A stretch of DNA of 64,000 bases. It comes from Owenia fusiformis. Taxonomy: Eukaryota > Annelida > Polychaeta > Sabellida > Oweniidae. Under the pieces are notes generated by a model. It was not told the origin of the DNA, ran no database searches, and saw only the letters and a program-made list of their open reading frames with translations. The stretch is from assembly GCA_903813345.2 (NCBI GenBank), contig CAIIXF020000008.1, positions 31,768,867-31,832,866 on the forward strand. Direction: 5' to 3'. Numbering within the stretch: the first letter of the stretch is position 1; the number at the start of each line of letters is the position of its first letter. Both the position numbers and the translations under genes were made by a program. Positions 4,598-45,631 of the stretch are shown one piece after another.

Positions 4598-7500
4598 ATG
4601 TCCGATTACTACACAAACGTTGGGTTTGAACACGATGAGAAAAAACCAAATGGAACTACTCCAAATGGTAAACTACCCGATGTTTCCAAAACGCCAAATG
4701 GTAATGTAGGGAATGGGCACCATTACGAAACATTTGTTAAACCGCACATCGGAGAACATGAACCTGAAACTAAGGATTCATTTGAGATGAAAAGCATGGA
4801 CGAAAAACCAAAGGACTTGGAGAAAGGACAGCTCGATGATGACGAAGTTGATTACTCAGATGCCAACTGCATTACAAGAGGAATGAAATTGTTTCAACTC
4901 GGGTTTTCACAGTTTATCACTAATAACTTTAACTTGTTAAGAAATATCTTCATGGGTGTGCTTCTCGTGGGCTATAGCGTCTACTTTGTATTTGCCCTCC
5001 TGTATTCTGTGCAAGGAGCCACGGCCCTTATAGTCATGACCTCGATTGCTGTCTTCTTTATCGTCTATGCCTTCTTACGCGATCACTTTGGGGATACAGT
5101 GAACAGAGTTGTATTTGTCCCACTTGGACGTCTTCTGGATAAACATTGGTTTTGGCTAAAATGGTAAGTATATAAAAATCGACCTACGATACGGTTCATA
5201 GTACCCTGTAAAATCGATCATTGTGAATGGTTAAATAGGTACAGCATATAAACGATGAATCTTCTTCAAATAGCAATGTCTATTTTTTTTAGTGAAAAGT
5301 GTTCCTCTATTTAGCGAGAAAAAAGGCAAAGTAATTGTCCCAGTCCTTGAAATAAATCTGGAAGTTTCAAAATTTCCCAAATTGTATTTTGTAAGGAGAA
5401 AATGTAAAGGTTATTCAACTTGAAAATGTTTTGAAGGGTTCAGGAAAATTATTATCCTTTTCACTTGCATTACTCAATTTAGCATGATCTGGAGTAATGA
5501 GACAATGGAAAAAATAGAAAACTTGAGGAATTTCCATCGTTGAAAATTTGTTTAATACATCGATCGTACAAGTGCACGTTTCAGGGGACTGTCATATCAT
5601 ATCTGATTAAATCATATCACATATCATATCAGCATTTTCGTCTCTAATATTTTACGCTGCATATTCACGAAGAATAAATAATTCAGAGAATCACACCCGG
5701 TGATCGTGAATATGGGACGGAGGGGGGGGGGGAGCAGGCAATTTCTGCTAGGAAATTCAACAAATCTGGAAGATTTATTTTTTCAAGAAAAAGTTTACTA
5801 TTGAATTGCTAAATGGATAGGCACACGGTATGGAAGAATATGTTAGGGGAGGGGACGGAGGGGGGAGCAATATGTATATAAGACATGATTAGAGATGTTT
5901 CGCGACTTTAAGTCCTTTTACTCCAAATGTCCCCATTTTTCAGTCTCCAGGGGTATATCATCCAGTTTCTTACTAAGTTAATGAGTTAATTTTTCAAATA
6001 CAAGAATTCGTGTGAAGTTGTTTCACTTTATAGAATTATTACTCCCCCCCTCCGTCCCCTCCCCCCCTCCGTCCCATTTTAATTATTTTCGATTATTTTT
6101 TATTTTACGTATGGAAACTTATTTTATAAATTCAGCAATGACATTAATTTAGTTATGATAACATCACTTACAAGTATTTATTACAGGTCGTGTAGTCCAT
6201 TGTTGCTTGATTTATAGCAAAACTTTGACTTTTGCACGTTGGTTGCGTTGCGCCTTTTTTAATAGATCTTATATCTTAAAAGAGTATCGGTTGAAAAATA
6301 ATCCTAGAATACCTAACATATTTTATCATACCGTGCGCTTATTCAATTTGCAATTCAATCGTAAACTCTGTCTTGAAAAAATAATTTTACCAGATTTGTT
6401 GAATTTTCTAGCGGAAATTGCCTGCTCCCCCCCTCCGTCCCATTTTCACGATCACCGGATGTGAGAATATGCAGTGTAGAAAAAATTTACATTCGTTTGT
6501 AAAATATTAATTGAAATGAGATTCAAATGTTTTCCTTGCATTGCTTTTAAAGATAAATGTGAAATTGATATGTTGACTAGAAGTTATCTTCAATGAAAAA
6601 GTGAGTTTTTGACAGAAACGATCAAAAATCGTTGTCATGACGACGAATGACAATAATATAAAATTAATTATATGAAATAAAAAAAATTTCAGGTCGGATA
6701 TATGTCTTTATGAAATCATTGATTTAGTCAACATATAAATATTAGAATCCATATTTTTAGGATAGTTTACCTGGCGCTACTGGCGGGTCTGATTACGTAT
6801 CTGGCTGTAGAATGCATCAAACGTTGGGAACAACTTATCCCCGTTGGTGGAGTTGCCCTCATTATATTCCTTGAGTTTCTGTTCTCAAAGCACCCACATA
6901 AGGTAAAATATATTTATAGAAAACACTGACGGTAAAATAGAAAATACATAAGGTAATATATATTTATAGAAAACACATGAGGTAAAATATGTTTATAGAA
7001 AACACATAAGGTAAAATATATTTATCGAAAACACATAAGGTAAAATATATTTATAGAAAAAACATAAGGTAAATATATTTATAGAATACAAGTGCGTGAT
7101 ACAGGGGTTGCCATTTTAGTAAAGGGTGTAAATACGTTTCTGTGCTTGATACAGGGTATATTTAATGGAAAAGGTTAAATTATGATGTTGAATTATTGGT
7201 GTCTATCATATATTTAAGAACTGCCATCTATATATGAATATAAAGTTTAAATAACTAACGTGAACAAAAGATTAATGAGATTCTGATTGTTAGGTTCTGA
7301 GAATGCTGCTGCCATCTTTGAATAAACTCTAAATTATCAATGATATAATTATAATCTATTGTGATAACGAACACCTCCCAATCTGAATGTTTTTAACTGC
7401 ACGGTGGCATTTGGATTAGACAGGTTTTACTGTATGAGTAATAGTAATACTGAAATTCAAAAAAATCTGAAGGCCTAGTCAATCTATTTTGGGAAATATT

Positions 7501-10500
7501 CTCAGCTATTTGAAATGAAGATCAACTTTGTAAGAAGTCTCTATAATTATTTTTTTAATTTATACAATAACATTATACTCAACTTAAGTTCAAATTCCAA
7601 TGCTCTGGCCTTGGCTAATCAAAACAGTTCATTGCAATTGTTTCATCAATTATTATATTATTATATTAATATATCATAATTATTTCACATGCAAATACTG
7701 TACTGCCACTAATATTTGATGCTGTTATCTTTCACAATTTTGCAATTTTGAAATTTTGCGGATATCAATTTTCGCTAATTATAAATTTTTTATAATTTTG
7801 TATCTATTTCTTTCACCATCATATCATTTCTCAAAAAAATTTCCAGCTTATTTGATTAAATGTTTTTAAAACCAAGAAATATGAATGAAACAGTACCTTC
7901 TTACCTTTAATTATTGCTATACCATGTACTTAAAGCCTTTACATGATACCTATCAGCTATCACCTGCTTCAAAAGCATAGGTGAAACTAAACTATTGAAA
8001 TCAAGTGCTCACTTTAAATTTTTTTTATATTTTCTGTTTGGGAAAATCTGTTAGTTATCAGCTGCATTTTTGTCAGTCAAGATTTCTCTTCATCAAACCA
8101 AATCAAATCCAAGGAATGTTTAGTCAAATATCCAGTTGTTCAGGAATCGAACTCAATTCAAAGAATGATTAGTTCCATAGTGTAAACATATACAACTTTG
8201 AACAAAATTGGTATCAGCCATTATGTTACATTAAAAAAAAACAGAATGTAAAAGACTTTCATGTAAGCAGGAAATTTCTTGAAAGAATACTAAAGGTTTC
8301 GCAACAGAATTTAGACGGTCATATGTTGAATTGCAGAAATTTTCTGAAAATGTAAGGTGTGTATGTTAGGCCAATGCATTATCTAAAGGAAAAGTACTCA
8401 TACAGATGATAAAAAAAATTGGAGATTGAGACAGGGAAGGTGCAAAGACCCCATCAACATTTTTTTTCAAAAATGTTTTCCTGATTTTCAGTTCCTTCCA
8501 TTTTTTTTTTATAATGTTTTCACATTAATATGTTGCATTTGTAGACAAAGTTAACATACTAAAGAGAAAATATTTTCCTTTTAAGAGTTTATTTGTGTCT
8601 CCAAATGCAACATACTGATGCATAAAACATTTATAAAAATTGAGTAGAAGGGGAAATTTTAAATTCAACGAACATATAGGCCCACTGAGCATTTATTTTG
8701 CACAGGGCCTTTATTAGAAAGAACTCAAAATAAATGCCATTGGCTTTTATTAAGACTAAGAGGGAAATTGAAAACATTTTTCCAAGGGGACAGGCATTTA
8801 TTAAGAGGGAAAATAGCTTTCCCAAGCCAGTGGGTGTTTATTTCGAGGAGTATTATCAATCGAAGAGTTGACACATGGCCTTCATATACTCATGCAATAG
8901 TATCTATCATCTCTGATTGCACACTTCTGTTTTACCTTTCAAGCATTCGATTTGGATTTTGGAATGTCATAAAGCTATGCGGTCAAAAGTAATCTTAATA
9001 CTTTTTAGTGAAAATGCATTTATATTTTTAAAATGCAGAATCTTGCGAATGCAAAATCCTCGAAATCCGATCACCTCCACATCTGAATGTTTTTTTTAAC
9101 TGGTCATGGTGTTTTAACTGGTCATGGTGGCATTTGGATTAGACAGATATTACTGTATAAGTATTAGACAGATATTACTGTATAAGTATAATAGTATTAC
9201 TGGAATTCCAAAAAATCATAACGCCTACAATGCTAGTAATATTAAGTGAAAATGCATTAATATTTTTTCAAAATCAAGAATCTTTCGGATGCAAAAACCT
9301 CGAAATCAGACGTTTAAATTTGAATGTTTTTAATTTGTAGCGGTGGCATTTGGATAAGACAGGTTTTACTGTATAAGTATAATAGACATTAATAGTATTA
9401 CTGGAATTCCAAAAAATCATAAGGCCTATAGCAACAATCATGTGAACTTCAGGTCAAAATTCCAATGCTCCCTTGGCCAATCAAATCAGTTCATTGCATT
9501 TGTTTCATCAATGCTCTCAATATCATAATTATTCCACATGCAAATACTGTACTACCGGTTAATTTGCGAGTTTAAATTTCATGAATTTTGAGAAATACCA
9601 ATTTTGCGGCCATTAAATTTTGCGGATATCAAAGGTTTAACTTCCATTATTCTCTGAATCCTCAAAATTAATTTATCTTATCTACAGTAATTACACCTAC
9701 CCAATATCATATACTTTGGATTAGATTTACAATCTCTAGATCTTAGTCAATGGCATGTTGCACCTCAGCCTTTAATTGGCGATATTCCCGACTATTAATT
9801 TTCGTGATTTTTACACAATCGCGAAAAGCACGAAACTAAATTGCACGCGAAAAATATCGGGAGTACAGTACATTGAAACCATACACTCTTATATTTCATA
9901 AGAATTTGCAATCAAGCCTAACAAATCTATTGGCAAAATATTAGGAGGCCAGCAAATGTACCCATGCTAAAGTGATGAAACTTTAATGAATTTTAATTTT
10001 TGCCTATACTGAGATGTGTTAAACTCTATTTGGGTTAGATTTATTCGGCTACACCCTCTACTTACAGCCTTAACATGCCCCCTATCGGCTATCACCCGCT
10101 TCAAAATCATAACAGGTTCCTTTATATCTTCCTTTATCTTCTGTTTAAGAAAAGCTGTTAGCTATCAGCTGTATTTTTGCCAATCAAGATTTCTCTTCAT
10201 CTGTGAATTACCCAGCGAGAAACCAAAATGGCAATTTTGATGGAAAGACACAAAGTACCAGTCAAAATCTCTGAAGATTTCCGGGCAAACAATGGCAGCT
10301 CTCCCAGTTAGGTTTTAGACTGTCTTCTCATATTTTGTCAATTTTATTCAATTTCAAGTATTGTTTAGAGTTATGCGTTCAACATATTCGAGAAGTCAAT
10401 AGCTATAATAAATCTGCAGATTTTGCTCACATTTATGTAAGCTTTTCTCTTTTGACGGATACTTTGTGTCTTTCCTTGAAATCATGACAGGTGTAACTGA

Positions 10501-13500
10501 TCTACTGAAATCAACTTCAAGTGCTTACTACTATCTCCCAATGTGAGCTACATCAGTGCTTTTTGTTGAGAAAATATGTAAGTTATTAGCCGCTTTTTTG
10601 CCGATCAGGATTTAAATTCTCTTTATCTGTCATGTACCTAGCAAGATTCAGAGATTTTGACTTGTACGTCATGTCTTTCCGTCAAAACTTCCATTTTTGG
10701 TTTCTTGGTAAAAAGTAGCTTCTCAATGTATAATGAGAATTTGCTGTTCGGCACAGAAGCACCTTTTAATTTTTTTCGATTTTCGCAAGGACACTAACAC
10801 AATTTTGAAGCGGTTGATAGGGGGCTCTAAAGGCTGTTCTAACATATCAGTCACAGCCTCTGAAAGAGCTAGATCTAAGGCTCTAGCTTTAGGCTAGTCT
10901 AAGTCCTATAGATCTAGTAGTCTAGGCCTAGAGTCATAGGCATAGGCCCGTAAAAATGTAAAGAAATAAAGCTTACAGCATGTTCTATAAGTGAATATGA
11001 CTCAATGCTATACATGTTCCGGGCCTATGCCTAGTATAGTCCCGCAGGACGAAGAAGATAGAATGTAAAAATCAAATTGAAAATCAAAATAATCGAACGA
11101 AAAAAAATTGAAAAAGTTGAAAATTCGATTTCGATTCAATTTGATTTTCTGCCATTATCATGGAGAGCCCATGGCCATTATAAATGAAATACTGTACTTA
11201 CCAACATGTTTCTCGGATATATATGTTGTTCTTACTTTATCTTCGCCGAAGATCGATGTTTATTTATATATAACAATCGAATAATCGACATAATTCAAAC
11301 TCATCTACGACACAAAAATATATCACTTTCGAAACCATGTAAACTGCTAAGATGACGTCATTTATATCCGGGATTGCTTTGCAAACTCCACACAACAGAC
11401 TGTCCCAGCTTTTCTCCTGCTTTCTCCCGATGCAATTCATACATTACTCGGAGATTACTGTCAAACGTTCCAAGTTTTACAATTTTAGCATGTTTATTAG
11501 GAGGCCCCATCGGGGGGCCTCCTATCAATTTTGTAGATATTATTCTTTATTCTTTATTCTTTATTCTTTATTAGGAGGCCCCCCGGCAGGGGCCTCCTAT
11601 CAATTTTGTAGATATTATTCTTTATTATTCTTTATTAGGAGGCCCCATCGGGGGGCCTCCTATCAATTTTGTAGATATTATTATTATTCTTTATTATTCT
11701 TTATTATTATTTATTCTTCCTCCCTCTTTTTCTCCTACTTCCAACTACCTTTCAACTAGGTACTACATAGTCCTACTAGGGACCTGGGCTGAACTTGGCG
11801 GGAAAGGAATTTTTATCTAGGTCAAGGTCAAAGGTCAAAATCTAGGTCAAATCTAAGTTTTTTTCAAGTTTCTCAAATCCTGACACTACACTTAAATATT
11901 TTTGGCTGAATTTTTGCACACAGATAGATATTAGTATTCTATTAGTCTTAGCCTTTTGCCGTCTAGAGAAATTTTGCCTAGATTTTGAGATATTGAAGGT
12001 CAAAAAAAGGTCAAAAAAGGTCTTTTTTCAACTTGCTTCAAATTGACCAATTTTTTTTTTAAAACTCATCTACAAGTTCTCAGGATTCCAAATCTGACCT
12101 TACTTTTGACCTTTGACCTTTGGTTGATCTTCAGTGACCTCCGAAAGGTAAAAAAGTTGATTTTTCAAATCGATTTTCTGGATTCAAATTTAGGTATATT
12201 TATTCACAAAAGATCTTCTGAGGTCTAAAAAAGTAAAATTTGCAAGGTCAAAGGTCAAGGTCATCAAACGAAATCACAAACTGTGTTTTCTAAGTTTCTC
12301 AAAATTGGAGACTACAAATCAATTTTTTTTACTGAAAGTCAGAATATATATTCCTCTAAAGGTTCTACACATATTAGCAATTGACTATTTATTAAAATTT
12401 TGCTCCAGTTTTGAGATATTAGAACTCAAAAACTGAAAAAAGGTCAAATTTAAAATTTTTCAAGGTCAAATTTCAACTTGCTCTAAATTGACCAAACTTT
12501 TTTTTAAAAAGCATCTACAAGATCTCAGGAACTCAAATCTGACCTTAGTTTTGAACTATGACCTTTAGTTGACCTTCAGTGACCTTCGAAAGGTCAAAAA
12601 AGTTAATTTTTTAAATTGATTTTCTGGATTCAAATTTAGGTTTCTTCAATCAGAAAAGATATACTGAGGTCTAAAAAAGTAAAACCTGTAAGGTCAAAGG
12701 TCAAGGTCATCAAACTAAATCACAAACTGTGTTTGCTAAGTTTCTCAAAGTTTGTGACTACAAATCAATATTTTTGAATTAAAGTCAGGATATATATTCC
12801 TCTAAAGGTTTTACACATAATAACAATTGATTATCTATTAAAATTCTGCACCAGTTTTGAGATATTGGACCTCAAAAACTGAAAAAGGTCTAATGTTGAA
12901 ATTTTTCAAGGTCAAATTTCACATTGCTTCAAATTGACCAAACTTTTTTTTTAAAATCATCTACAAGATGCCTGGAGTTCATATATGTCCTTGTATTTAA
13001 GATTTGACTGGCTGACCTTTAAATGTTCAAAAAAGCCTACGGGGCCTCCGTAAGATTGCTTGCAATCTTCTAGTTATTATTTATTCTTCCTCCCTCTTTT
13101 TCTCCTACTTCCGACTAACTTTCAACTAGCTACTACATAGTCCTACTAGGGACCTGGGCTGAACTTGGTGGGAAAGGAATTGTTATCTAGGTCAAGGTCA
13201 AAGGTCAAAATCTAGGTCAAATCTAAGCTTTTTTTAAGTTTCTCAGATTTCGTCCTCATACTTCATTATTTCTTGCGATGAATTAAAATGTAACTAGATA
13301 TAAGCATTCTCTACAAATTGCTCACTATATGTACGCATTAATTTTTTACCGTTTTTGAGTTATTTGACGTCAAAAATCGGCAAAAATCTGTCATTTTTCA
13401 ACTTGCTTCAAATGAACCAGATTTTTTTTTAAAAATCATCTACAAGATCTCAGGAACTCAAATATGTCCTTACTTTTGACCTCCGACCTTTGGTTGACCT

Positions 13501-16500
13501 TCGGTGACCTTCGAAAGGTAAAAAAAGTTGTTTTTTCAAATTGATTTTCTGGATTCAAATTTAGGTATTTTTGATCACAAAGGACCCACTGAGGTCTAAA
13601 AAAGTAAAATTTGCAAGGTCAAAGGTCAAGGTCATCAACCTAAATCACAAACTGTGTTTTCTAAGTTTTCAAAATTGGAGACTACAAATCAATATTTTTT
13701 CATGAAAGTAAGCATATATATTCCTCTATAGGTTCTACACATATTAACAATTGACTATTTATTAAAATTGTGTACCAGTTTTGAGATATTGGAATTCAAA
13801 AACTGAAAAAAGGTCAAATTTCGAAACTTTTCAAGACTAAATTTCAACTTGCTTCAAATTGACCAATTTTTTTTTAAAACTCATCTACAAGTTCTCAGGA
13901 TTCCAAATCTGACCTTACTTTTGACATTTGACCTTTATTTGACCTTCAGTGACCTCCGAAAGGTCAAAAAAGTTGATTTTTCAAATCAATTTTCTGGATT
14001 CAAATTTAGGTGCATTTAATCACAAAAGACCTTTAGAGGTCTAAAAAAGTAAAATTTGCAAGGTCAAAGGTCAAGGTCATCAAACTAAATCACAAACTGT
14101 GTTTTCTAAGTTTCTCAAAATTGGTGACTACAAATCAATATTTTTTCATGAAAGTCAGGATATATATTCCTCTATAAGTTCTTCACATATTGGCTATTGA
14201 TTATTTATTAAAATTGTGTACCAGTTTTGAGATATTATAGCTCAAAAACTGAAAAAATGTCAAATTTCAGAATTTTTCAAGGTCAAATTTCAACTTGCAT
14301 TAATTCGACAAAATCTTTTTTAAAAATCATCTACAAGTTGTCTGGAGTTCATATATGATCTTAAATTTGATATTTAACCTTTAGTTGACCTTCTAATTGG
14401 CAATGCCTACAGGGCCTCCGTAAGATTGCTTGCAATCTTCTAGTTATTATTTATTCTTCCTCCCTCTTTTTCTCCTACTTCCGACTAACTTTCAACTAGC
14501 TACTACATAGTCCTACTAGGGACCTGGGCTGAACTTGGCGGGAAAGGAATTTTTATCTAGGTCAAGGTCAAAGGTCAAAATCTAGGTCAAATCTAAGTTT
14601 TTTTCAAGTTTCTCAAATCCTGACACTACACTTCAATATTTTTGGCTGAATTTTTGCATACAGATAGATATTAGTATTCTATTAGTCTTAGCCTTTTGCC
14701 GTCTAGAGAAATTTTGCCTAGATTTTGAGATTTTGAAGGTCAAAAAAAGGTCAAAAAAGGTCTTTTTTCAACTTGCTTCAAATTGACCAAATCTTTTTTT
14801 AAAACTCATCTACAAGTTCTCAGGATTCCAAATCTGACCTAACTTTTGACCTTTGACCTTTGGTTGACCTACAGTGACCTCCGAAAGTCAAAAAAGTTGA
14901 TTTTTCAAATCGATTTTCTGGATTCAAATTTAGGTATATTTATTCACAAAATACCTTCTGAGGTCTAAAAAAGTAAAATTTGCAAGGTCAAAGGTCAAGG
15001 TCATCAAACGAAATCACAAACTGTGTTTTCTAAGTTTCTCAAAATTGGAGACTACAAATCAATTTTTTTTACTGAAAGTCCGAATATATATTCCTCTAAA
15101 GGTTCTACACATATTAGCAGTTGACTATTTATTAAAATTTTGCTCCAGTTTTGAGATATTAGAACTCAAAAACTGAAAAAAGGTCAAATTTCAAAATTTT
15201 TCAAGGTCAAATTTCAACTTGCTCTAAATTGACCAAACATTTTTTTAAAAAGCATTTACAAGATCTAGGGAACTCAAATCTGACCTTAGTTTTGACCTAT
15301 GACCTTTAGTTGACCTTCAGTGACCTTCGAAAGGTCAAAAAAGTTAATTTTTCAAATTGATTTTCTGGATTCAAATTTAGGTTTCTTCAATCAGAAAAGA
15401 TATACTGAGGTCTAAAAAAGTAAAACCTGTAAGGTCAAAGGTCAAGGTCATCAAACAAGATCACAAACTGTGTTTTCTAAGTTTCTCAAAGTTTGTGACT
15501 ACAAATCAATATTTTTGAATTAAAGTCAGGTTATATATTCCTCTAAAGGTTTTACACGTATTAACTATTGATTATCTATTAAAATTCTGCACCAGTTTTG
15601 AGATATTGGACCTCAAAAACTGAAAAAGGTCTAATGTTGAAATTCTTCAAGGTCAAATTTCACATTGCTTCAAATTGACCAAACTTTTTTTAAAAAATCA
15701 TCTACAGGATGCCTGGAGTTCATATATGACCTTGTATTTAAGATTTGACCTTTGGCTGACCTTTAAATGTTCAAAAAAGCCTACAGGGCCTCCGTAAGAT
15801 TGCTTGCAATCTTCTAGTTACGATCTAATTCCTGCCAGTATCAATGAATAAATCTATTGACCAACAGATTGGAAATATGTATTCCAGCGATACCCTCATT
15901 TTGACGAAAGAATGGTACAAATATGTCCACTATTTATCGAGATATCGTGTAGAAAAATTGAAGAAAGACATCGCTTAAGAAATCTCTATTTCTAGACTGA
16001 ACTGTTCACGCTCGCAAGTGGCATCTCCATCTCCATATATGGGCAAAAAGGTGGAGTTAACAATAAGCAATGACACGATTGACACGATTGACACGAAGAA
16101 GTCTCGATGAATCTCGCTTAAACTCCGCCCCTTCTTCGTGAAAAATCACGTGAATTCCGGCTTTTGCTGGGACATATCCGGGCATCTCGGCTTCGAACCC
16201 AATCAGAAGTTTCAATTTTGACTGGCGCCGCATACATTATCTCAAGTCTCACCCAATATTTTTATGTATACGTTAATTAAACATATTTATAGAAAACACA
16301 TAAGGTAAGATTTATTTATAGAAAACACATATAACTTACATTAATCAAAGTTTCAACACAAGAATAGTTTACTCTACCGAAATTAAAAAAGCACTTTATA
16401 ATATGATATAATTATTGAACAATTCCATTTAAAGTAACTAAATGCTCATTTTTAATTTATCAATTCCCTGTTCTACATACTATCTTACAATGATTTTCAA

Positions 16501-19500
16501 ACAGTTATCTCAAGCATCATCATGTTCTTTATAGGTGCGCCTGAGACCTGTAGCATGGGGATTCGGTCTACAGATTGTGCTGGGGATTCTCGTCCTGCGC
16601 TGGAAGCCTGGATACGACGCCATAGAGTGGGTAGCGGATCAAGTGCAAGAGTTCATGTCGTATACACTAGCAGCTGGGGACACCGTATTCGGATTCACCA
16701 TTCTACATCCGTTCATCTTTTTGGTGAGTAAACGGAGATTTATCTCAAAAACTACCCTGATATATTGTGCTTTTCTACTGAATACAGTACGCGTAAAAAC
16801 TAACCTTACACGAGCTCCTTCACGCCGTCGGTATCCATAACTGACACCATGTCTACACTCATCTCAATAAGTTTGGCAACCTAATGTTTTTATTGGCCGG
16901 ATAGCATATCAAAGTCGATCAAATTACTTAATTTCAATTGTTCGGAAAATATGAAAGATTCTTTTAATCGCCAAACAAACAGGCCTAGAAAATTGATTAC
17001 TTAATTTCAATTGTTCGGAAAATATGAAAGATTTTTTTAATCGCCAAACAAACAGGCTTAGAAAATTAATCCAAAATGGAACTTCCGGTAGACACATCTA
17101 TTGATCTGAGAAGTTGTGACTAACCGACTGTTTTTTAGATGATGCCCATGCTCATTTGGTTTGCCGCTGTGATGTCTGTGTTATATTTCTTTGGGATCAC
17201 CCAAGTGATTGTTAAGAAGATGGGTTGGTTTATGCAAATGACGTGTGGAACAACTGCCGTAGAATCACTTAGTGTATCTGCTAATATCTTCCTAAACGGG
17301 GTATGTTTATTTCATATTTTGTTTCAAACAATAAAGGTGCAGATTACAGTAAATAAAGTCGACAAACTATAAATAGTCCAAATACAATTCTATTTAGAGT
17401 TGGCTGTTGTCATTTTTAGGGCATGCTTGGCAAGTTCATCCTCCGATCACAGGGCTTCAAAATCCAGAATATATTCTTTCTTTTTACCCCCTGCGATAAG
17501 CAGTTACCATTTCCCCGATTAAGAACTCGCAATCTGATTGACTGTCGCAACACTGCGACAGAAATCATGTAACATAATTAGATCACGTGATTCAGTTAAA
17601 TCGGGCGCGTCCAAATTGGTTATAGCAAGGGGAAGAAGGAGGTACGGATTCTGGATACCTGCTTAGGAGGATGGGCAAGTTTTGCACATTAATATCCCAT
17701 TAACTAGGCTTTGTCTTTTATATCTTTTGTAGATGGATACACTGCTTATGTTACGTCCCTACCTGGAGAAACTGACCAAGTCCGAGTTTCACGCCATGCA
17801 AGTCGGCAACCAGGCCACCGTTGCTGGATTTGTATTTGCTGTTTTCATCTTGTTAGGGGTAGGTACATGTTGCGTCCATTACCAAGTGACGAGGCCTATT
17901 ATATATCTAAAAGTTACAAAGTGACTTTATCAAAATGATAATGCATTATACAATTAAAAAATGTATAAAGATAAATAAATGAGATCGAAATTATCATTTA
18001 TGATTGTACAGAACAATATTGTCACATAGGTTAACAATAATTATTGTTAGTACCTCCGTGTAAATACTCTCATCTGATTGGTCAATTAGCTGTCAACATT
18101 TTTGCCTGTACCTCACCTGTGCATCATGGGATATCATATTATTGACCGCTTATGTTACTGTACTACACTTGTGAATTATGGGAAATATGTCAACAGCAGT
18201 TTCTCGGTTTACAGTCTCGGTATACAATTTTGCCGGTTGACCTCTGGAGAGGTCAACAATTGTATATTGTCTTATGATGTACGTGTACAGTGAATTTATA
18301 TTTTTCATTAAACGATTGTAGGCACCACCCCAGCATCTGCTGACTGCAGCTTGCATGAGTGCCCCTGCTGCTATGGCAATAGCTAAACTCAACTATCCAG
18401 AAACGGAACAGTCTGTAACCAATGGCGACGTCGAATTTCCACCTCCGTAAGGACATGCGTACATTTATTAACAATTAATAAAAATGGTAGCTGTAATTTC
18501 ACGTTCAAAAGCAGAGAGAATGATCATACTTTGAAACCAAACCTGCTGTTGTATTATATACTTAAAAGTATACTCCTCAAAATCTAACCTGCTACGATTT
18601 ATGGATTCCCTTAACCCAGGCCTCAATACACTCCCCTTCATAAGTTTGGCAACTGGAAGTCGCCAACATGACATACATTTTCTGTGGCATTTATAAAAGC
18701 CTGTTTATGTTCATCAAAAATTCACCAAGGTCGTAAATTTCCAAACTGTTGCATCTAAAGCGAAAATTAAGATATTAACATCAACAGTCATTGATATTCT
18801 ATCTAATGAGAGCCTCCAGTTCCCAAACATATGGTGAGGAGTGTACATCATCCCGTTCTTTCCTTGATTTTAGCATGCATTTATGTCATGTTAACTTATG
18901 TTGTGTGTCTCTTGCAGGGTTGAAAAGAATGTCATCGAATCAGCTTCCAATGGTGCCAAGGCAGCTGGCAAGACTGTCACAGCTGTCGTGATCAGCTTTA
19001 TTTTTATGTTGTCAGCTATAGAGTTTCTTAACGCAACTTTGAAATGGATTGGGGAGAGGGTTGGATATGGCGATCTCACTTTCCAGGTACGCATAAACGA
19101 GTTTTATTTTGTGTTCAAGCAGAGTACGAGTTTTTTCTAGGTTATTTCACCCACGCCCATGTGAATATAACCAACATTTTTCCACCGGTCAATTATGTGG
19201 GTGGAATTACCTAGAATCGAATCGAGAATCTATTAACGTAATTAGAAAGTTAAAAATTTTGCCAAGAGCATGCATATAAAATACTTCATCTTATTCCTGA
19301 AATAAATATTTTAAAACTTACATTACAACTTTTGCTTCATACATGACAACGTACAGCTAAAGTGTACACCCGCAAATTTTGTCACTGTACGTTGTCGATG
19401 GTTAGGCGTGGTATTATAAGGGGCATGTGTACAGTTAACGATAGTGAAAACAAATTGTACTCTAATGACATTCATGATGATGTTCCTTAAACTTATTCAT

Positions 19501-21314
19501 TCACTGTAATGTATTCACTTGCAGTTGATCTGTTCGTACGTCTTCTGGCCATTTGCCTTCTTGATGGGTATAGAGCGAGACAACTGTGGACAAGTCGCCA
19601 AATTATTGGGAATTAAACTGTTTACGAGTGAATTTCTGGCCTACAGTGAACTTGGAGATATGGCAGAAGCTGGTGAAATCACAGTAAGTTCTTTCAAGGG
19701 TCAATGGTTGATAATGTATTGATTTTGTGGCTCAAACGTTCATTTATTTAAAGTCTTTCGGCTATGTTGGACAAAATGATTTTAAACTCAGTTTCTTTGA
19801 ACATAAAAAGCTGACATACTGTATACTTTGGTTGCTTTTTAACTTTACTTATTATTATCGTACATTTAGCAACGATCAGCTGCCATTGCGACGTATGCTT
19901 TGTGTGGGTTTTCTGGATTGGCCACGTGTGCGATTGCAATTGGAGTATGGAGTGCTCTCGTTCCTTCAAGAGTCAGTTGGGTAGCAGAACAAATGTTACG
20001 ATGTGTTATCAATGCAAACATGGCCTGCTTCCTCACTGCATGTGTTGCCAGTAAGTTTGACATCTACCCTGGCTAGTAGTTAGATTCCAGTTTCAGTACC
20101 ATGAGAATGATTTGGCTCAGGGAACATGGTATACAATGACAGATATAGAGAAAGATCCCCAAACTTGATGAATAATAAATTAATTAATTGGATCCATTTC
20201 TAACTTCAATTCAGTATCATCATTTGAACTATGTAGATATTGTTATTTTTATGACACGTCGAATCTTTTCTTTATTCCAGGTGTTCTTTACCGAGACGAT
20301 TTCTCAATTGTCAATGTCAATGGGACATCTATTGACCCTCTGCCCATCGTAGGAAACGGTGGAATAATGGATGTTATACTTGACTTGGTCGGCAGCATCA
20401 TTCCAAAAGACATTATGGATTCCTTTGCGAATATCATTTTGGGAATACGCGATATTGTATTACCCGCAGCGCCAAATTGCACTATTACTGGAGGCACAAT
20501 CGTGAACGAAGTAAACGGAGGTCTCCAAGGTATTTTGGACGTGCTTGGTGCGATCCTACCAGATGATGCCATGGGTTCTCTTAACCAAGTACTTGACGGA
20601 CTGCAAGGGATCGTCCGTCCTCGAGATTGTGTCATCCTCAATGTGACAACTGGTTTCAACGATACAATGGCAACTGCTGAAACCGCAACTGGTGATTTGA
20701 TAGGTACAATCATTGACTTGATATCTGCAATAATACCCGAGGACAGACAAGGTTCTTGGGATAAAGTGCTCCAGGGAATCGAGGACTTGCTCACCCCTGC
20801 TGCAGTGAACTGCTCCAACCCTGATACTATCAACCCTACCGTTGACCCAGTCCTTGTTGGCATATGGGATATTATCAAACAACTCCTTCCAGCTGATGTT
20901 ATAGCATTACTTACACAAATAGGTAATGGTATAGGTGAAATAGTGGCTCCTATTAATAACTGTGATGTAACGACAGTTGCCACTGTAACTGCCAGTGCAA
21001 TGGCAGATTCGGGAATGTCCGCTCTAGCCGCTGTGCCTGGTGTAAACCAGATCTCCTCGCAGCAGCTACAGACAATGCACGACGCAGTGTTACATATGCC
21101 GCAAGAAACAATATCGCAGGTTGCGCAACAAATGACACATATAATTGGCTATTTCCAAACCAGTGATTTACTAGAGACAGCTATGAATACACAAGGGGTC
21201 AATCCAGCAGTGACTAAAATAATTGAACTTTCCCATCAACTTCCTGAACATGTTCTTAATCCATTGCATCGGGTCTTAGAGGGCTTGTCAGAGCTGCTAA
21301 CTGCGGGGACATAA
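4598..21314 (+). CDS. Gene 1: SLC28/CNT-like transporter with long repeat-bearing C-terminal tail
   Basis: Exons: 4598-5163, 6761-6902, 16535-16723, 17139-17300, 17733-17858, 18322-18446, 18918-19086, 19525-19683, 19870-20050, 20281-21314; all GT-AG and phase-consistent, giving about 950 aa. Residues 1-115 are a polar, presumably cytoplasmic tail with PNG repeats; exons 1-2 carry the first membrane helices. CNT landmarks: RPVAWGFGLQ (exon 3), GTTAVESLSVSANIF (exon 4), LRPYL with SEFHA (exon 5), LNYPETE (exon 6), SEF in GIKLFTSEFLAY (exon 8, Glu about 529) and TYALCGFSG (exon 9). CNTs carry nucleosides with Na+ through the plasma membrane, but the expected GQTE, NEF and GFANFSS motifs read NGMDT, SEF and GFSGLAT, so the substrate is uncertain. 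The last exon encodes residues 607-950, an extracellular repeat tail unlike the short ends of known CNTs. The start codon ATGTCC follows ACAAA and is the first ATG of the open frame. Confidence 0.93.
5683..6476. mobile_element. Foldback MITE in gene 1 intron 1
   Basis: About 800 bp with inverted ends: CCGGTGATCGTGAA plus GGGACGGAGGGGGG on the left, and CCCCCCTCCGTCCC plus TTCACGATCACCGG on the right. The inversion continues inward for over 100 bp (AGCAGGCAATTTCTGCTAGG against CTAGCGGAAATTGCCTGCT). A related left arm occurs at 36262-36400. Non-coding; inserted in an intron. Confidence 0.75.
6893..7088 (+). repeat. 30-bp minisatellite starting at the exon 2 splice donor of gene 1
   Basis: About six imperfect copies of a roughly 30 bp unit (core CACATAAGGTAAAATATA, then TTTATAGAAAA). 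The first copy overlaps the last codons of exon 2 (CCACATAAG) and its donor GTAAAA, so every unit repeats a donor-like AAG/GTAAA. Two more copies lie 9.2 kb downstream at 16280-16332. Confidence 0.8.
7089..11497. other. Gene 1 intron 2, repeat-derived stretch with local duplications
   Basis: No exon is visible. Paralogous blocks recur. AATCTGAATGTTTTTAA with GGCATTTGGATTAGACAGG (Tigger-like ends) occurs near 7380, 9080 and 9325. A block with TTGGCNAATCAAANCAGTTC occurs near 7610 and 9475. A block with GTTAGYTATCAGCTG and TCAAGATTTCTCTTCATC occurs near 8050, 10160 and, degraded, near 10580. A hairpin of GCGATATTCCCGA type lies near 9780-9870. The pattern indicates segmental duplication of a 1-2 kb block inside the intron. 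Confidence 0.55.
11498..15820. repeat. 1.37-kb satellite-like element, three tandem units rich in AGGTCA
   Basis: The left end has three short tandem copies (from about 11498, 11571 and 11637) of a palindromic head, AGGAGGCCCC...GGGGCCTCCT, followed by ATCAATTTTGTAGATATTA. Three long units then start at 11711, 13081 and 14451 with TTATTCTTCCTCCCTCTTTT; the first two are 1370 bp and the third about 1368 bp. Units end in GGGCCTCCGTAAGATTGC then TTGCAATCTTCTAGTTA. Each unit contains internal subrepeats about 445 bp apart. No ORF of note. A truncated inverse copy sits in gene 2 intron 8 (27430-27955), so this is a dispersed family. Confidence 0.85.
16280..16332 (+). repeat. Detached copies of the gene 1 exon 2 donor minisatellite
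   Basis: ACATATTTATAGAAAACACA, TAAGGTAAGATTTATTTATA and GAAAACACAT continue the same unit as the array at 6893-7088. The interval between the two pieces (7089-16279) holds the satellite and duplicated blocks. Confidence 0.75.
16843..17065. mobile_element. MITE relic with a 74-bp direct duplication, gene 1 intron 3
   Basis: An ACACTCATCTCAATAAGTTTGG end belongs to the CTCCATAAGTTTGG family seen again at 18630, 44270, 53962-54164 and 63973. Inside, a segment starting ATTACTTAATTTCAATTGTT is repeated at 16922 and 16996 almost without change. Confidence 0.5.
17417..17690. repeat. Imperfect inverted repeat filling gene 1 intron 4
   Basis: Left TTGGCAAGTTCATCCTCC and right GGAGGATGGGCAAGTTTT are inverse of one another, with a small TGTCGCAACACTGCGACA hairpin between. 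Probably a decayed MITE. Confidence 0.4.
17939..18321. other. Gene 1 intron 5, no clear feature
   Basis: The stretch includes a short hairpin, GTTGACCTCTGGAGAGGTCAAC (18235-18256), and a CTGATTGGTCAATTAGCTG word typical of invertebrate MITEs. No coding sequence. Confidence 0.35.
18618..18760. mobile_element. MITE end of the CCATAAGTTTGG family, gene 1 intron 6
   Basis: ACACTCCCCTTCATAAGTTT followed by GGCAACTGGAAGTCGCC matches the termini of the complete copy at 53962-54164. The matching right end is not intact here. Confidence 0.45.
19343..19400. repeat. Short hairpin in gene 1 intron 7
   Basis: TGACAACGTACAG and CTGTACGTTGTCG form an inverted pair around a loop of about 25 bp. Possibly the remnant of a MITE. 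Confidence 0.4.
20281..21314 (+). other. C-terminal repeat domain of gene 1 (exon 10)
   Basis: This exon adds about 344 residues after the last transporter helix. Four units share the pattern hydrophobic-D-x-hydrophobic-hydrophobic, then (I/L)(I/L)P-x-D, then a G-(I/L) helix, then P and Cys. The key Pro is at about residues 648, 700, 759 and 810, and the Cys follows 23-25 residues later (about 673, 723, 784, 834). A fifth, Cys-less unit (HQLPEHVL...VLEGLSELL) ends the protein. Asn-linked glycosylation sequons (NCT, NVT, NCS) fit the extracellular side expected for CNT C-termini. I do not recognise the domain from any named family. The short tails of genes 2-4 (IDEIIGCIIDPDNC; WEEIIDIVDCIFFDNC) look like single distant relatives of the unit, which suggests local amplification. 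Confidence 0.75.
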
Positions 21315-23612: not shown

Positions 23613-26600
23613 ATGGGCGATAATTCAACTTCCGAAACAGCATTTAAAAAATATTATGAAGATATTCCGACAAAGACCAATCCGCAATTGATACATACAA
23701 ATGGATCTGTAAAGGCCAATGGTGATGCGGTTACGAACAATGAAAATGATAGCAATGGGGTTAAAGTTATCGACGATAGTAACCACAAACGCTCTAGTCC
23801 GTTAGACAATGGCGGCCGTGTTAACGCGAAACATGGGAACCGTCTTACAACTGGCATGAAAAATTGTCAAACTGCTCTAGGAACACGTTGCTCGGTATAC
23901 AGTTCTTGGATAGCAAAAATAACACTTTTCATACTTCTAAGCGTATACACTATATATTTTATATTTGCTATTATACATAGCGTAGACGCAGCTCGGGCCC
24001 TGATAGTCTTGACAAGCCTGACTGTATTTTTTATTGTATGGAATTTTGTTCGAGATCATTATGGAGATCGTTTATATGGTGCTTTTGGTGAACCTGTAGT
24101 GAATGTGTTGAACAAACAATGGTTTTGGTTAAAATGGTAAGTCTAAATTATTTTCAAATGAAGCAATTATTCAACCAGCTTACATCAATTCAGAATATCA
24201 GATAAGAGAAATTATAATGTCGTAAAATAACGACATTATAATTTCTGTCTAAATGTATCTCGAATTTCTCAAATTCTTACTCCAATGAAATGATGTATCG
24301 CTGTAAATATTGTAAACCACATTTATTGCAATAAACTATGCCTGTAAAATATATAAACATAGTAGGAAAATCAAGCTACATGTTTTTATGAGAACGTATA
24401 CGTGAACGTGATTTATTGTTCTCTGGGAACTGGTTCTCCTATGAACCTATCTTTCTAACCTAACTTTCGCAGTGCTAGATTGAGTATAGCGGTACACGTA
24501 TTCAAGAAAAATAGTAGTACATGTATGAGTTCCCTGGAAAAACAAATTAAGAGGTGCCAGTAATCCCTGGGGTGTAATGTTAATAATTTATGTTATTTCA
24601 ATATGTTAATATTTACACGTACATAATATTGTAAGTACTTACAACTTGTTTTAAAACGCGTATCTTACCCTCCCTGTTGTACTCTAAACATACGTAATAA
24701 TGTAATACAAATCACCATACACGGTTGTATTTCCTTGCAGGGTTCTTGCCGTTGTCGGATTTGTAGGTCTGGTGGTCTATTTGGCAGTTGACGTCATTAA
24801 GACGCCCATGCAGTTGGCTTCTCTTGGGGGAGGACTCGCTATGCTCCTCATCGTATTTTTGACATCGACGAATCCAGATAGGGTAAATGTTATGTACAAT
24901 CCTATAAAAAGAAGCAATGTATTTGTAATAAAACATACAGGTACAATGTTACCATAATGCCATTTACCATTTTTCATCTTTAAAGGTCCAAATGCGCCCA
25001 GTTGCGTGGGGTCTGGGTATACAGTTTGTTATGGGTTCTGTGATTCTGAGATGGTCCTGGGCTTATGAAGCAGTAGACTGGATGTCAGACCAGATCCAAA
25101 GATTTCTGTCTTACGTCCTTGATGCCAGTGAAGTCGTATTTGGGGACCCGGGTTACCTCGACCATCCATTTATATTTCTCGTAAGTGTGACCAGTACTCG
25201 ATATCTTAGCCTATTTGGGCAAATGAACCTAATTCGTTCCTGATCGTAACGCACATACCGCGAGCCAGATCCAGTCCCCATTGGTAGTTGACTCAATGAA
25301 ATAATGAGTATATTCATTGAGCTTTGAGACTAATACTAAAGGAGGAATCTAGCAGAGGTCCGTGTTTAACGTAAGAATATTGTATATATATGTTTCATTG
25401 ATCAGATGGACACGATGCTGTTGTTGAAGTCATACATGAACCCGATTAGATTGGCAATGTCAGGATCGCAAGCATTGCGTATAGTCAACCACATGACCTG
25501 CTCATCGTTCATCCAATGTAGTTTCATGCGAAACAATACTCTTTCATGTCTTTATTTGTCAGATGATGCCGATGTTGATCTACTTCTCCTCAGTGATGGC
25601 CATACTGTTCTATATGGGAGTGATCCAGGTAATAGTGATGAAGATTGGATGGCTCTTCCAGAGGACGTTCGGCACGACAGCGGTTGAGAGCATCAACTCA
25701 TCGGCGAATATATTCCTGAGTGGTGTAAGTGAGGTTCATAATGTTAGCATCAATTGTGTGGAGTAAACCATACGGAAATACAATCTTATATTGGCTTTTG
25801 AAATAACAGGACGACACAAAAATCTTCAAATGAATGAATGAATCCAGTAAATCAAATATAAATGCAAGACAATTAAGGCATTAACATTTAAAATATCGCC
25901 ACTTAAAGACACTGACCAGCCACCGCCGACCGCAGAACGCCGAACGCTGATCGTCAAACGTCGAACACGGTCCACTGATGTTGGTGATAAAAACTCATCC
26001 GGAATGTATGTCTGTATATCCCTTTTTAGATGGATACCATGTTGATGTTGAAACCATATCTGATGAGATTGACAATGTCGGAACTGCACGCATTGCGTGT
26101 GGCCAACCACACTACAATAGCTGGCTTTGCATTCGCTCTCCTTATACTGCTAGGGGTGAGTATCTCAATCTGGAGTATATACGTGTACGTTGTTAATTCC
26201 TAAAATGTTGGTCTCTGGATTTTTCATTCCTTGTATTTTATTGTCTGAGAGCCCTTTATATTGTATATTTCATTAATTACCATAAAAAATCTGATGGTTT
26301 ATATTTTCAAAAATAAACCCAATGTAATATTTGGTATTCGAGGAATGAATATATGTGAATTGATTACGTACATATAGGCCCCTGGGAGACATCTATTAGC
26401 AGCAGCTGTGATGTCGGCTCCAGCAGGATTAGCAATAGCCAAGCTTAACTACCCTGAGACTGAAGTATCAGTGACTGGAGATAATATTGAGCTGGAAGAT
26501 TCGTAAGTGAACTCTTTGAACATGCATCGTATCTTTGTTGTTTTCCAGGATCGTATTACAATTTTTCATATGTACCTTTAATTTACACCTTTATAATTAA

Positions 26601-29600
26601 TTAATTAATACGAAATTAACAAAACTACTATAATTCTACGCGTTCACCTACAAGTAATTCTTAAAAACGTGGGTCTTGACCTTACTATTGCGTTGAATCT
26701 CAAACGATGCGGGAGATTTTAGATTTTACAGTGTCAACATTACATAAAATTTTCTTTTTACTTTAGTTTTAAATAAACGAATGATGGTTATGATTAACAT
26801 CGTGTGATTTTTCAAAAATATATTTAGTAAAGAAGATATTACTTTCTATATTACTTTCTTTACATGTATTCATTAGGCCAGATCGCAATATAGTTGAGGC
26901 AGCTTCGAATGGTGCTAAAGTTGCTGGAAAGACAGTTATGGCCGTTATAGTGAATTTCATATCTGTACTGTCTTCACTTTCTTTCCTGAATGCCACTTTG
27001 AAATGGTTGGGGGAGAGGGTTGGTCAGGATAACTGGAGCTTTCAGGTGAGACATATAGTTATGATACAAGCCGATTGACATTTCCAGAAAAAAATCAATA
27101 GACGCTTTTCAATTAAACTTTGGAGATGGAGTTCAAAATTATTAGTATGGCTCAAGTTGCATCGTATTTTACAATAATCAAACAGTTTGTACTCGTATGT
27201 TCTTTCGTGTTGTCATCTTCAATGAAACACACGCATGTCTTTTGCTTTCAGTTCTTTTGTTCATATCTTTTCCTGCCAGTGGCCTTGTTAATGGGAGTCG
27301 AGTGGCGTGATGCAGGGAAAGTTGCCTCACTTATTGGCCTCAAGCTATTTACAAGTGAATTCATAGCATATGGGGAAATGGGAGAAATGATAGATAGAGG
27401 AGAATTAACCGTAAGTTGTCTATATCATAACTAGAGGTTTAAGATTGCAAGCAATCTTACGGAGGCCCCGTAGGCTTTTTTGAACATTAAAAGGTCAGCC
27501 AAAGGTCAAATCTTAAATACAAGGTCATATATGAACTCCAGGCATCTTGTAGATGATTTAAAAAACAAGTTTGGTCAATTTGAAGCAATGTGAAATTTGA
27601 CCTTGAAAAATTTCAACATTAGACCTTTTTCAGTTTTTGAGGCCCAATATCTCAAAACTGGTGCAGAATTTTAATAGAAAATTAATTGTTAATATGTGTA
27701 AAACCTTTAGAGAAATATACATCCTGACTTTAATTCAAAAATATTGATTTGTAGTCACAAACTTTGAGAAACTTAGAAAACACAGTTTGTGATCTTGTTT
27801 GATGACCTTGACCTTTGACCTTGAAAATTTTACTTTTTTAGACCTCAGTATATCTTTTCTGATTGAATAAACCTAAATTTGAATCCAGAAAATCAATTTG
27901 AAAAATCAACTTTTTTGACCTTTCGGAGGTCACTGAAAACTGTAAATACAACGTAAAACTCAATTGATTTTTTGGTCTGCTTTTCTGAACTACACTAGAC
28001 AACCCTCACTTCACAAATAGGATTAACATTATCAAAAGGTCCATTCATCTGTCTATCTAATACCTATATTTGTAATCACGTCCATCGCATGTCTTTGCTT
28101 TTAGCAACGTTCAGTGGCAATAACAACATATGCAATGTGTGGTTTCTCTGGTCTAGCCACGTTTGCAATCAGCGTTGGGGTGTTCAATGCCTTAGAGCCC
28201 AGACGGCTGCATCATGTTATCGGAATGATGGGCAGGACGATGATGAATGCAAACATCGCCTGTTTTCTCACTGCTTGCTATGCAGGTATGCTCCGTGACT
28301 TGCTTTTTCCATTGTATTTTCTATGTATACTAATGAGTTGATAAAATGTCACGAACATATCTCTGTACACGGAAAACGTTCATGTATCAGGTCATAAGGT
28401 AATTTTGCTGTAATTGTTGACATTTTCAAAGGTTGACTGTTGAAATTACATGTACCAGGTCGTTCAATAAGTTCACGTAAAATGCTCTCATTTCAAAGAT
28501 TTTTGATATTTTCTCATGTCACACAATGTATAGAAAATACTGATGGATTCCTAAAATATCAGCGTCTCTTATTTGATTGGTCAAAAAAGGGTTATTATGG
28601 TAACTTGACTTTTGGGTAGGCGGGGCACTTTTTACGTCACATTATTCATTAGAAAAACTACAGAATGATAGGTAATTTATGAGTATATCACATGAATTTC
28701 TTCTCCGCTTTCTACTTGTACATGATATAACTTAATTTAATTGTTACAACTATTGTCCTCTAAGGTTTCAGAAGTATTCTCCCTCATGTTTAATGCACAG
28801 CCTCTTGCATTCAACCCATTGACGATACAGTGATCTGAAGCCATTTGGCAAACTTGTTTGAATGGCAATCTTGACTGCAGTCGAAAATAGTTTCATTGTT
28901 CCATAACGGGCAACTAAACTCCTAGCTGATCCTTCATCCTAGTGAAAAGGCAAAATCAAGGATTGTCTCATCTGGAGAGTATGTTACTTGGGGCAGCTTT
29001 GCCATCTATTTTGCCAGTCATTTGTGATGGTTTCCTGCACAATATTAGCAGTGTGATCGGCTGCATTATCCCGATTGAAAAAAAGTTTGGCCGAATGGTT
29101 TTAATCAACTTACCATAGCATTACTCTTTGTTGATTTTTTGGTCCACTGGTACAGCATTGACTAGCACGATTTCAGAAATTTTCATGATAACAATGGACA
29201 TTAATTTTTCCTCAAAACATTTGTAATTTAAAAAAGAACAAATAAAAATAGGGATCCTTCATTTGCATATATTGATATATTTCTGTAATGGTAAATTGTG
29301 TGACGTAAAAAGTGCCCCGCCTACCCAAAAGTCAAGCTACCATAGTGACCCATATTTTTGACCAATCAAATCAAAGATGCTGATATTTTAAGAATCAATC
29401 CTGAAGTATATTTTGCACATTGTGTGAAAATTTTATGGGAAAATATCAAGAATCTTTGATGAGAGCATTTTCCCGTGAAATTATTGAACGACCTGGTATA
29501 TCCCTTGCTAACAAAGACCACAACAAATGGTGAGTCCCGTAAATGTGCTCCGAAAGAATCACAATCGAGTATTTAGGTTGATGTTCTAATAGTATACTCT

Positions 29601-29866
29601 TTCCATGTGTTTCAGGTTTGCTGTACAACGAGGATATAGCCGGTGGAAGTGGAGGTAGCAATAGCACAATAACCACGCCACCCCCAGACTTCACATGGCC
29701 TCCCTGGTTACCACCCATAGATGAGATTATAGGATGTATAATAGACCCTGACAATTGCCTAGATTCAGACACTAAATTGGCTGCAAGACAGTTCAATAAT
29801 GGAACATTGAATGCAACCTTCTTTGGGCATTCCCCTACAGTACCAATGAGTGCTGTATACAGTTAA
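23613..29866 (+). CDS. Gene 2: SLC28/CNT-like transporter
   Basis: Exons: 23613-24136, 24741-24882, 24986-25180, 25563-25724, 26030-26155, 26378-26502, 26877-27045, 27252-27410, 28105-28285, 29616-29866; about 677 aa. The start MGDNSTSE lies in TCACTGATAGAAGATGGG, a context shared with gene 3. The cytoplasmic tail is polar and shorter than in gene 3 (about 85 residues missing). Core landmarks are MRPVAWGLGIQ, GTTAVESINSSANIF, MLMLKPYL, LNYPETE, GLKLFTSEFIAY and TYAMCGFSGLAT. As in the other copies, Q and T of the CNT hairpin-1 motif are replaced and its Glu is Asp; NEF is SEF; the TM8 Asn is Gly. The conserved Arg of RPYL is Lys. The last exon gives an 83-residue tail that is Pro-rich, with NST/NGT/NAT sequons and two Cys. 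All junctions are intact, so it should be expressible. Confidence 0.92.
24207..24246. repeat. Perfect 16-bp-stem hairpin in gene 2 intron 1
   Basis: AGAAATTATAATGTCG and its exact inverse CGACATTATAATTTCT flank an 8-base loop, about 70 bp after the donor of exon 1. It could be a tiny MITE; no function can be assigned. Confidence 0.6.
25406..25500 (+). pseudogene. Partial, misplaced copy of exon 5 in gene 2 intron 3
   Basis: The frame MDTMLLLKSYMNP...QALRIVNH matches the start of the true exon 5 at 26030 (MDTMLMLKPYL...HALRVANH) and keeps an acceptor-like ATCAG just before the ATG. The second half of the exon (IAGFAFALLILLG) and its donor are absent, and it lies upstream of exon 4, that is out of order. 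It is best read as a broken duplicate that is skipped in splicing. Confidence 0.75.
25860..25985. repeat. Repeat of the GACGCCGAC family in gene 2 intron 4
   Basis: TTAACATTTAAAATATCGCC followed by GCCGACCGCAGAACGCCGAAC. A related sequence occupies the same intron of gene 3 (42750-42830), and an inverse member lies at 44080-44160. The shared position in paralogous introns suggests insertion before the gene 2/3 duplication. Confidence 0.5.
27430..27955 (-). repeat. Truncated inverse copy of the AGGTCA satellite in gene 2 intron 8
   Basis: Starts AAGATTGCAAGCAATCTTAC then GGAGGCCCCGTAGGC, the inverse of the unit ends at 13035-13070 and 15780-15818, and runs through one GACCTTGACCTTTGACC block before breaking off. 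It lies 20 bp after the exon 8 donor. Confidence 0.8.
28456..29496 (-). mobile_element. Mariner-like element with long inverted ends, decayed transposase, gene 2 intron 9
   Basis: Ends CCAGGTCGTTCAATAAGTTC and its inverse ATTGAACGACCTGG are each flanked by TA, the target duplication of Tc1/mariner elements. The inverted ends extend about 210 bp and include GTGCCCCGCCTACCCAAAAG. On the - strand the interior reads fragments such as QWVECKRLCIKHEGEYF, like the C-terminal region of mariner transposases, but with stops and frameshifts. Inactive. Confidence 0.75.
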
Positions 29867-45000: not shown

Positions 45001-45576
45001 AATGCCGATGTTGATATTGATCCATTTATGACGTCACTTGATTCTAGCAAATCATATGGGAACCATTCATGACGTAACTTGATTCTAGGAAATCATGTGT
45101 AACAAAACATATATCTCGTTCTTCGGTCAATATTCATTAGTTCCCAGAATGCACTTCTACAGTGGTATACGCTGGAGTGTATACGGAGGAGTTGTATACG
45201 ATGACGATATACCACTCTCCACTGTATATCATTGTTATAGACCCATGTTATACAACTGTAATCGGACTTAGAGTGGTATAACATCTTTTATGTGCGTATA
45301 TGCAGGCCTGTCAACTGTCCCGCAATTTGCGTATTTGTCACGCATTTGCTGAAGAATTTGAAGTCACGCCAGTTATTTTTGCGTGACAGAAAATGTCACG
45401 CAAATACGCATTTTACCTGGTTATTGTCACGCAAAAATATTTCTGTAGAAAAATTTCAAAAAAAGATCGTCTACACAGCAAAAATACGAACGCCGGAAAA
45501 AAACGTACGCATTTCGTTCGGACTTTTCACGCGAATTACGTATATGTCACGCATTCCGTTCGAAATTTTTCGTACC

Positions 45577-45631
<55 letters not shown>

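Follow-up and report, generated by a model that had tools for sequence, protein, structure and literature searches.

The window analysed here, the whole 64,000-nucleotide stretch of Owenia fusiformis DNA, holds a tandem cluster of four genes that probably encode Na+-coupled carriers of the CNT fold and the SLC28 clade, with a substrate pocket changed before the genes were duplicated; as substrate we favour a riboside with an odd or small aglycone, or a polyol-like metabolite. Judged by the residues of the pocket, an altered specificity with retained Na+ ligands is well supported, and the four transporters probably carry something other than the usual set of nucleosides; that the substrate is not a nucleoside is possible. 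Such a paralog cluster, combining an altered contact set with intact Na+ ligands, would be a natural experiment on the evolution of CNT selectivity. If this reading is true, a homology-based label such as 'SLC28A3-like' may be given to proteins that do not carry nucleosides.

Four intact CNT genes in a single row

Exon searches with gene 1 and inspection of the exon boundaries placed four intact SLC28/CNT-type genes in tandem, all on the forward strand. Gene 1 (4598-21314, 950 residues) comprises ten exons (4598-5163, 6761-6902, 16535-16723, 17139-17300, 17733-17858, 18322-18446, 18918-19086, 19525-19683, 19870-20050 and 20281-21314). It is followed by gene 2 (23613-29866, 10 exons, 677 residues), gene 3 (33050-47816, 10 exons, 755 residues) and gene 4 (55960-62373, 11 exons, 728 residues). 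Every intron is of the GT-AG type, and each frame contains one stop, at its end. The first-pass annotation had located its finding at 17139-20050, and these limits prove exact: the fourth exon of gene 1 starts at base 17139, and the ninth, which encodes GFSGLAT, ends at base 20050. Core fragments of human CNT3 and of the Neisseria CNT, run against the window by tblastn, matched nothing upstream of 4598 or downstream of 62373; three matches were at chance level (E 3-6). Queried with the N-terminal exon of gene 1, the window yielded the first exon of each of the four genes and a single weak match besides (E 0.19). Rfam at gathering thresholds returned zero matches in the window, and ARAGORN found no tRNA there.

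On sequence grounds, the four genes belong to the CNT family by descent. In gene 1, the one product taken through the Pfam test, PF01773 (Nucleos_tra2_N) scored 73.7 bits against a cut-off of 27 and PF07662 (Nucleos_tra2_C) 210.7 against 32.3, with the Gate domain PF07670 falling under its cut-off (24.4 versus 29.6 bits). Residues 74-611 of gene 1 align colinearly with residues 86-635 of the CNT3 chain 8tz1_A (E 5.1e-125), and its core is homologous to vcCNT (3tij, E 2.6e-51) and nwCNT (5l26, E 2.2e-58). Against TIGR00804 (NupC/NupG), a 373-residue core of gene 1, a fragment that begins at profile position 23 of 401, reached 362.8 bits for a cut-off of 442. The signature (G/A)XKX3NEFVA(Y/M/F), as written in PMC5465479, occurs in none of the four window genes, compared with 21 of 24 comparator CNTs (NEF itself in 24 of 24), and 'nucleoside transporter' is therefore unsuitable as a functional name for them.

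A replaced nucleoside pocket

The register of the pocket was set by a hidden Markov model built from the 24 comparators, namely two CNT3 chains (6ksw_C, which we take to be human, and 8tz1_A, presumably bovine), nwCNT, which we assume to come from Neisseria, and 21 bacterial CNTs. All four genes align to this model without gaps in HP1, HP2 and TM10, and every printed position there carries the top posterior symbol. This bears out the gapless placement of ANIFLNG|MDTLLMLRPYL (the bar marking an intron) given for gene 1 in the first-pass annotation.

Residues are numbered below as in human CNT3 (hCNT3). Table 3 of PMC5465479 lists Q341, T342, E343, E519, N565, S568 and F563 as uridine contacts. 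Excerpts of PMC7440666 add V375, divide the contacts into a ribose set (E519, N565 and S568) and a base set (Q341, T342, E343 and V375), and give G340, Q341, S374 and V375 as selectivity positions. In vcCNT numbering, Thr155 and Glu156 hold the water through which the base is read, and Phe366 forms the floor of a bowl (PMC4139061, in part).

The HP1 tip reads ANIFLNG|MDT in genes 1 and 3, ANIFLSG|MDT in gene 2 and ANIFLNG|LDS in gene 4, the phase 0 GT-AG intron lying between Gly and Met/Leu in all four. Where CNT3 has GQTE, the window genes thus carry (N/S)G(M/L)D: NGMD, SGMD, NGMD and NGLD for genes 1 to 4, followed by SEF, SEF, SEF and SEI in HP2 and by GFSGLAT, GFSGLAT, GFSGLTT and GFSSLST in TM10. 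In gene 1, the first half of the HP1 tip (N-I-F-L-N-G, 17283-17300) keeps N336 and exchanges G340 for Asn and Q341 for Gly; the second half (M-D, 17733-17738), on the next exon, exchanges T342 for Met and E343 for Asp. S374, a base-selectivity position in PMC7440666, has become Phe (17829-17831). The S-E of SEF in HP2 (19627-19632) exchanges N518 for Ser and keeps the ribose contact E519, and the TM10 stretch C-G-F-S-G-L-A-T (19903-19926) keeps C561 and F563 and exchanges A564 for Ser, N565 for Gly and S568 for Thr. All of these lie on the forward strand.

Unlike CNT3, all four genes share replacements at nine pocket positions. In gene order, G340 is N, S, N, N; Q341 is Gly throughout; T342 is M, M, M, L; E343, S374, N518, A564 and S568 are uniformly Asp, Phe, Ser, Ser and Thr; and N565 is G, G, G, S. 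E519 and F563 are kept in all four, as in CNT3. Other pocket positions vary: V375 is V, A, A, A; F520 is F, F, F, I; and G567 is A, A, T, S.

Much of what the first-pass annotation had seen in gene 1 is confirmed by the aligned segments, including NEF to SEF, GFAN to GFSG, the survival of the counterparts of vcCNT Phe366, Glu332 and Asn149 (F563, E519 and N336, in four of four genes) and the exchange of Glu156 for Asp (E343, also four of four). It had ascribed the change to gene 1, where it is indeed present; it is common to the four tandem genes. Of the nucleoside contacts counted there as lost, Q341, T342 and N565 are gone, but every copy has Thr for Ser371 (hCNT3 S568), and the hydroxyl at that position is thus retained. 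Its list also passed over the Phe at S374. The replacement reaches two selectivity positions, G340 and S374.

The Na+ site is conserved

Table 3 of PMC5465479 assigns N336, V339, T370 and I371 to the Na+ site, V339 and I371 through their backbone only, and a second hCNT3 site formed by S369, S396, C561, C602 and T605 is proposed in PMC7440666. N336 and T370 are kept in all four window genes; the two backbone positions read Leu throughout (V339) and V, I, V, L (I371). Among the seven side-chain positions of both sites only S369 differs (A, T, T, A), whereas N336, T370, S396, C561, C602 and T605 are the hCNT3 residues in every gene. Each gene accordingly shares site 1, six of the seven side chains and four of the five second-site residues with CNT3, compared with zero to three of seven in the 21 bacterial CNTs; nwCNT, in contrast to hCNT3 and the window genes, has Asn and Ser at C602 and T605.

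The counterpart of vcCNT Ser183, which had been left unplaced, is Thr in the four genes, as in hCNT3 (T370; 17817-17819 on the forward strand in gene 1, its role being given in Table 3 of PMC5465479). An alternative placement, in which the Ser183 counterpart is the Ser now replaced by Phe374, was rejected, as the numbering in that table leads to the kept Thr four residues earlier. The earlier claim of Na+ coupling is thus upheld at the level of residues, and with more of them than had been named. Each protein would act as a Na+-coupled elevator, and the largely kept second site makes two Na+ per substrate likely.

Comparison with other CNTs

The 21 bacterial CNTs are a non-random sample: 19 come from plasmid records and two from IMG/VR contigs, the 19 different plasmid proteins having been hand-picked for genus variety out of 88 matched plasmid records, and loci L005, L006 and L008, repeats of others, were excluded before counting. 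Core identity to human CNT3 is 40.7-42.7% for the window genes and 23.7-41.2% for these 21. Eight nucleoside contacts were counted (Q341, T342, E343, V375, E519, F563, N565 and S568), of which genes 1 to 4 share 3, 2, 2 and 2 with human CNT3, that is, about the rate of an average residue at their identity. By contrast, nwCNT and six of the 21 bacterial CNTs, at 37.3-41.2% identity, retain all eight; the other bacterial proteins share seven (six proteins), six (six), five (two) or four (one). vcCNT also has all eight at 39% overall identity to hCNT3, according to excerpts of PMC5465479 and PMC7440666. All 24 comparators agree at N518, E519, F520, F563, A564 and N565; at S568, 22 have Ser and two have Ala, and none has Phe at 374.

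On these contact counts, set against CNTs of similar identity, the change of the pocket appears to exceed chance; a cruder column test shows no such excess. It took the columns with 90% conservation or more among the comparators: two of the four contact columns differ in every window gene, as do 10 of the 34 others (Fisher p = 0.58). Nor are the nine replaced positions significantly more uniform among the paralogs (six of nine invariant versus 167 of 373 columns, p = 0.16).

Searches for relatives with the four-paralog core yielded 450 pattern matches in genome contigs and 102 in viral contigs, zero of them confirmed. A scan of genome contigs with an HP1-only alignment and the one exact pattern [AS]NIFL[NGS][GN][MVL]D, which is not a survey, gave 47 stretches and no confirmed CNT relative. 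Bacterial segments retrieved L001, L006 and L007 from viral contigs, L006 and L001 being one contig, and the phage collection gave five records (best E 2e-11). In titles and abstracts of open-licence PMC papers on invertebrate SLC28 or its pocket residues, this pocket appeared in none of the matches listed.

Origin and maintenance of the cluster

In a tree that carries a long-branch warning (L019), and in which the two CNT3 chains are not sisters, the four window genes form one branch with 100/100 support and join those chains, the only other animal-type rows, in a group of six, again with 100/100. Since a single branch unites four genes with a common pocket, the change of the pocket most likely predates the duplications. 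Core identity is 84% between genes 2 and 3 and 58-61% for all other pairs. The copies, at least genes 2-4, are under maintenance, with purifying selection wherever it is measurable: dN/dS is 0.10 (NG86) and 0.12 (YN00) for genes 2 and 3, 0.18 (NG86) and 0.13 (YN00) for genes 2 and 4, and 0.09 (NG86 only) for genes 3 and 4, pairs involving gene 1 being saturated.

What the transporters may carry

PMC5465479 and PMC7440666 present the characterised members of SLC28 as carriers of nucleosides. In the window proteins, the hydroxyl-bearing part of the substrate would still meet E519, T568 and the ring of F563: on the ribose side a hydroxyl and a carboxylate (T568 and E519) are kept and N565 is not, and the base side is rewritten. 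The Gly, Met and Asp of HP1, together with the bulky Phe374, would recognize the base-side part differently, in a smaller and more hydrophobic half-pocket. This would point to a riboside whose aglycone is small or non-standard, or to a small metabolite resembling a polyol, as the likeliest substrate, in place of the usual wide range of nucleosides.

More tentatively, these residues could describe a tandemly expanded animal branch of SLC28 that couples Na+ to the transport of a small non-nucleoside, the cation machinery and the hydroxyl face being kept while Phe374 and Met342 close the nucleobase half. A CNT-like transporter of a non-nucleoside exists in SpoVV (YlbJ) of Bacillus subtilis, which carries dipicolinic acid (PMC5629000, in part), but its homology to CNTs is remote only and it belongs to sporulating bacteria. 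In Table 3 of PMC5465479, hCNT3 Cys mutants are non-functional at E343, E519, F563 and S568, and those at Q341, T342 and N565 retain function, the first two with an altered choice of permeant. As each essential position preserves its chemical kind in the window genes and the lost ones tolerate Cys, a riboside carrier of altered specificity fits at least as well as a carrier of non-nucleosides. The first-pass annotation, which had concluded that the substrate is not a standard nucleoside, was right that specificity residues are changed; its conclusion reaches beyond the evidence, given that the essential positions remain Asp, Glu, Phe and Thr.

A bacterial parallel bears on the same step. Two plasmid CNTs, like the window genes, have Asp for the HP1 Glu, followed by a hydrophobic stretch (DVFVM versus DTLLM): GNVD in Klebsiella michiganensis p8BG (L004/L008) and GNTD in Photobacterium sp. 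DA100 (L009). Unlike the window genes, they retain NEFVA and N565 and have Ala at S568, and in the tree they group with L007 (84/84, not strong), apart from the window genes. Both loci (L008, 3728-8659; L009, 1163-5432) show the same gene order, a DeoR-PfkB kinase, a nucleoside hydrolase-like protein, the CNT and a Tsx/OmpK channel, the OmpK label being the annotation of the Klebsiella record itself. The hydrolases are divergent and score far under the NCBIfam equivalog cut-offs, and the rows perhaps serve the uptake of an unusual riboside. Because these CNTs lie beside riboside-type genes, Asp in place of Glu seems to allow a riboside as substrate, and the loss of GQTE becomes a weaker reason to conclude that no nucleoside is carried.

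A less likely reading, in our view, though a live one, is that the four are ordinary nucleoside carriers with a shifted base preference, in which the HP1 changes retune the choice between purines and pyrimidines as S319, Q320, S353 and L354 do between hCNT1 and hCNT2. The residues kept in kind, the working Cys mutants with altered selectivity and the bacterial Asp-HP1 gene rows would all suit such carriers, as would the hCNT3 N565A mutant, in which binding of uridine persists at ~280 uM (excerpt of PMC7440666). Against them stand the hCNT selectivity positions G340, Q341, S374 and V375, all of them replaced in genes 2-4 and all but V375 in gene 1, the Phe374 foreign to all comparators, and the loss of both N518 and N565 despite their invariance there.

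The C-terminal tail of gene 1

Gene 1 further differs from CNT3 in a long repeat tail. Its last exon (20281-21314, forward strand) encodes ~344 residues past the final core stretch, with four clear repeats of ~30 residues that start at residues 639, 691, 750 and 801. Pairwise repeat scores are 48-75, compared with a maximum of 39 in 30 shuffles, which were run on a coarser grid, and each repeat contains one Cys (673, 723, 784 and 834). A weaker fifth repeat is seen at residue 918. The tail would be extracellular if the topology of vertebrate CNTs applies. It matches no Pfam family and has no credible PDB match (best E 0.5), and its AF2 model (mean pLDDT 36) is too poor for use. That the repeats derive from the short tails of the other three genes found no support: 343, 111 and 390 of 500 shuffles reached the same scores.

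This tail could be the working part of gene 1 if the four proteins were non-transporting Na+-binding sensors, scaffolds or adhesion proteins, a reading that the absence of the family NEFVA motif from all four genes and the lack of significant similarity between the gene 1 tail and those of genes 2-4 would also fit; with the cation ligands conserved in every copy and dN/dS near 0.1 for genes 2 and 3, we regard it as very unlikely. That the genes are decaying or mis-modelled, with a splice or alignment error mimicking a changed pocket, is hardly credible: the HP1 change does sit precisely at an exon junction, but junction, phase and motif are shared by four genes with core identities of 58-84% and frames that are open throughout, and a six-frame pattern search of the window found no GFAN, its only GQTE-like peptide, SQSEHL, lying at 1278, where there is no CNT exon.

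Other features of the window

Intron 2 of gene 1 contains a 446-bp tandem repeat in ~8 copies (12026-15763), rich in GGTCA-type words. A 7-kb stretch in intron 2 of gene 3 (34375-41409) has inverted-repeat arms of 1340 nt that are 99% complementary, perhaps a recent mobile element. The intron preceding the gene 3 exon at 45876 includes a run of 53 C (45578-45630), and an open frame on the reverse strand (46570-46863) resembles, by eye, a fragment of a reverse transcriptase.
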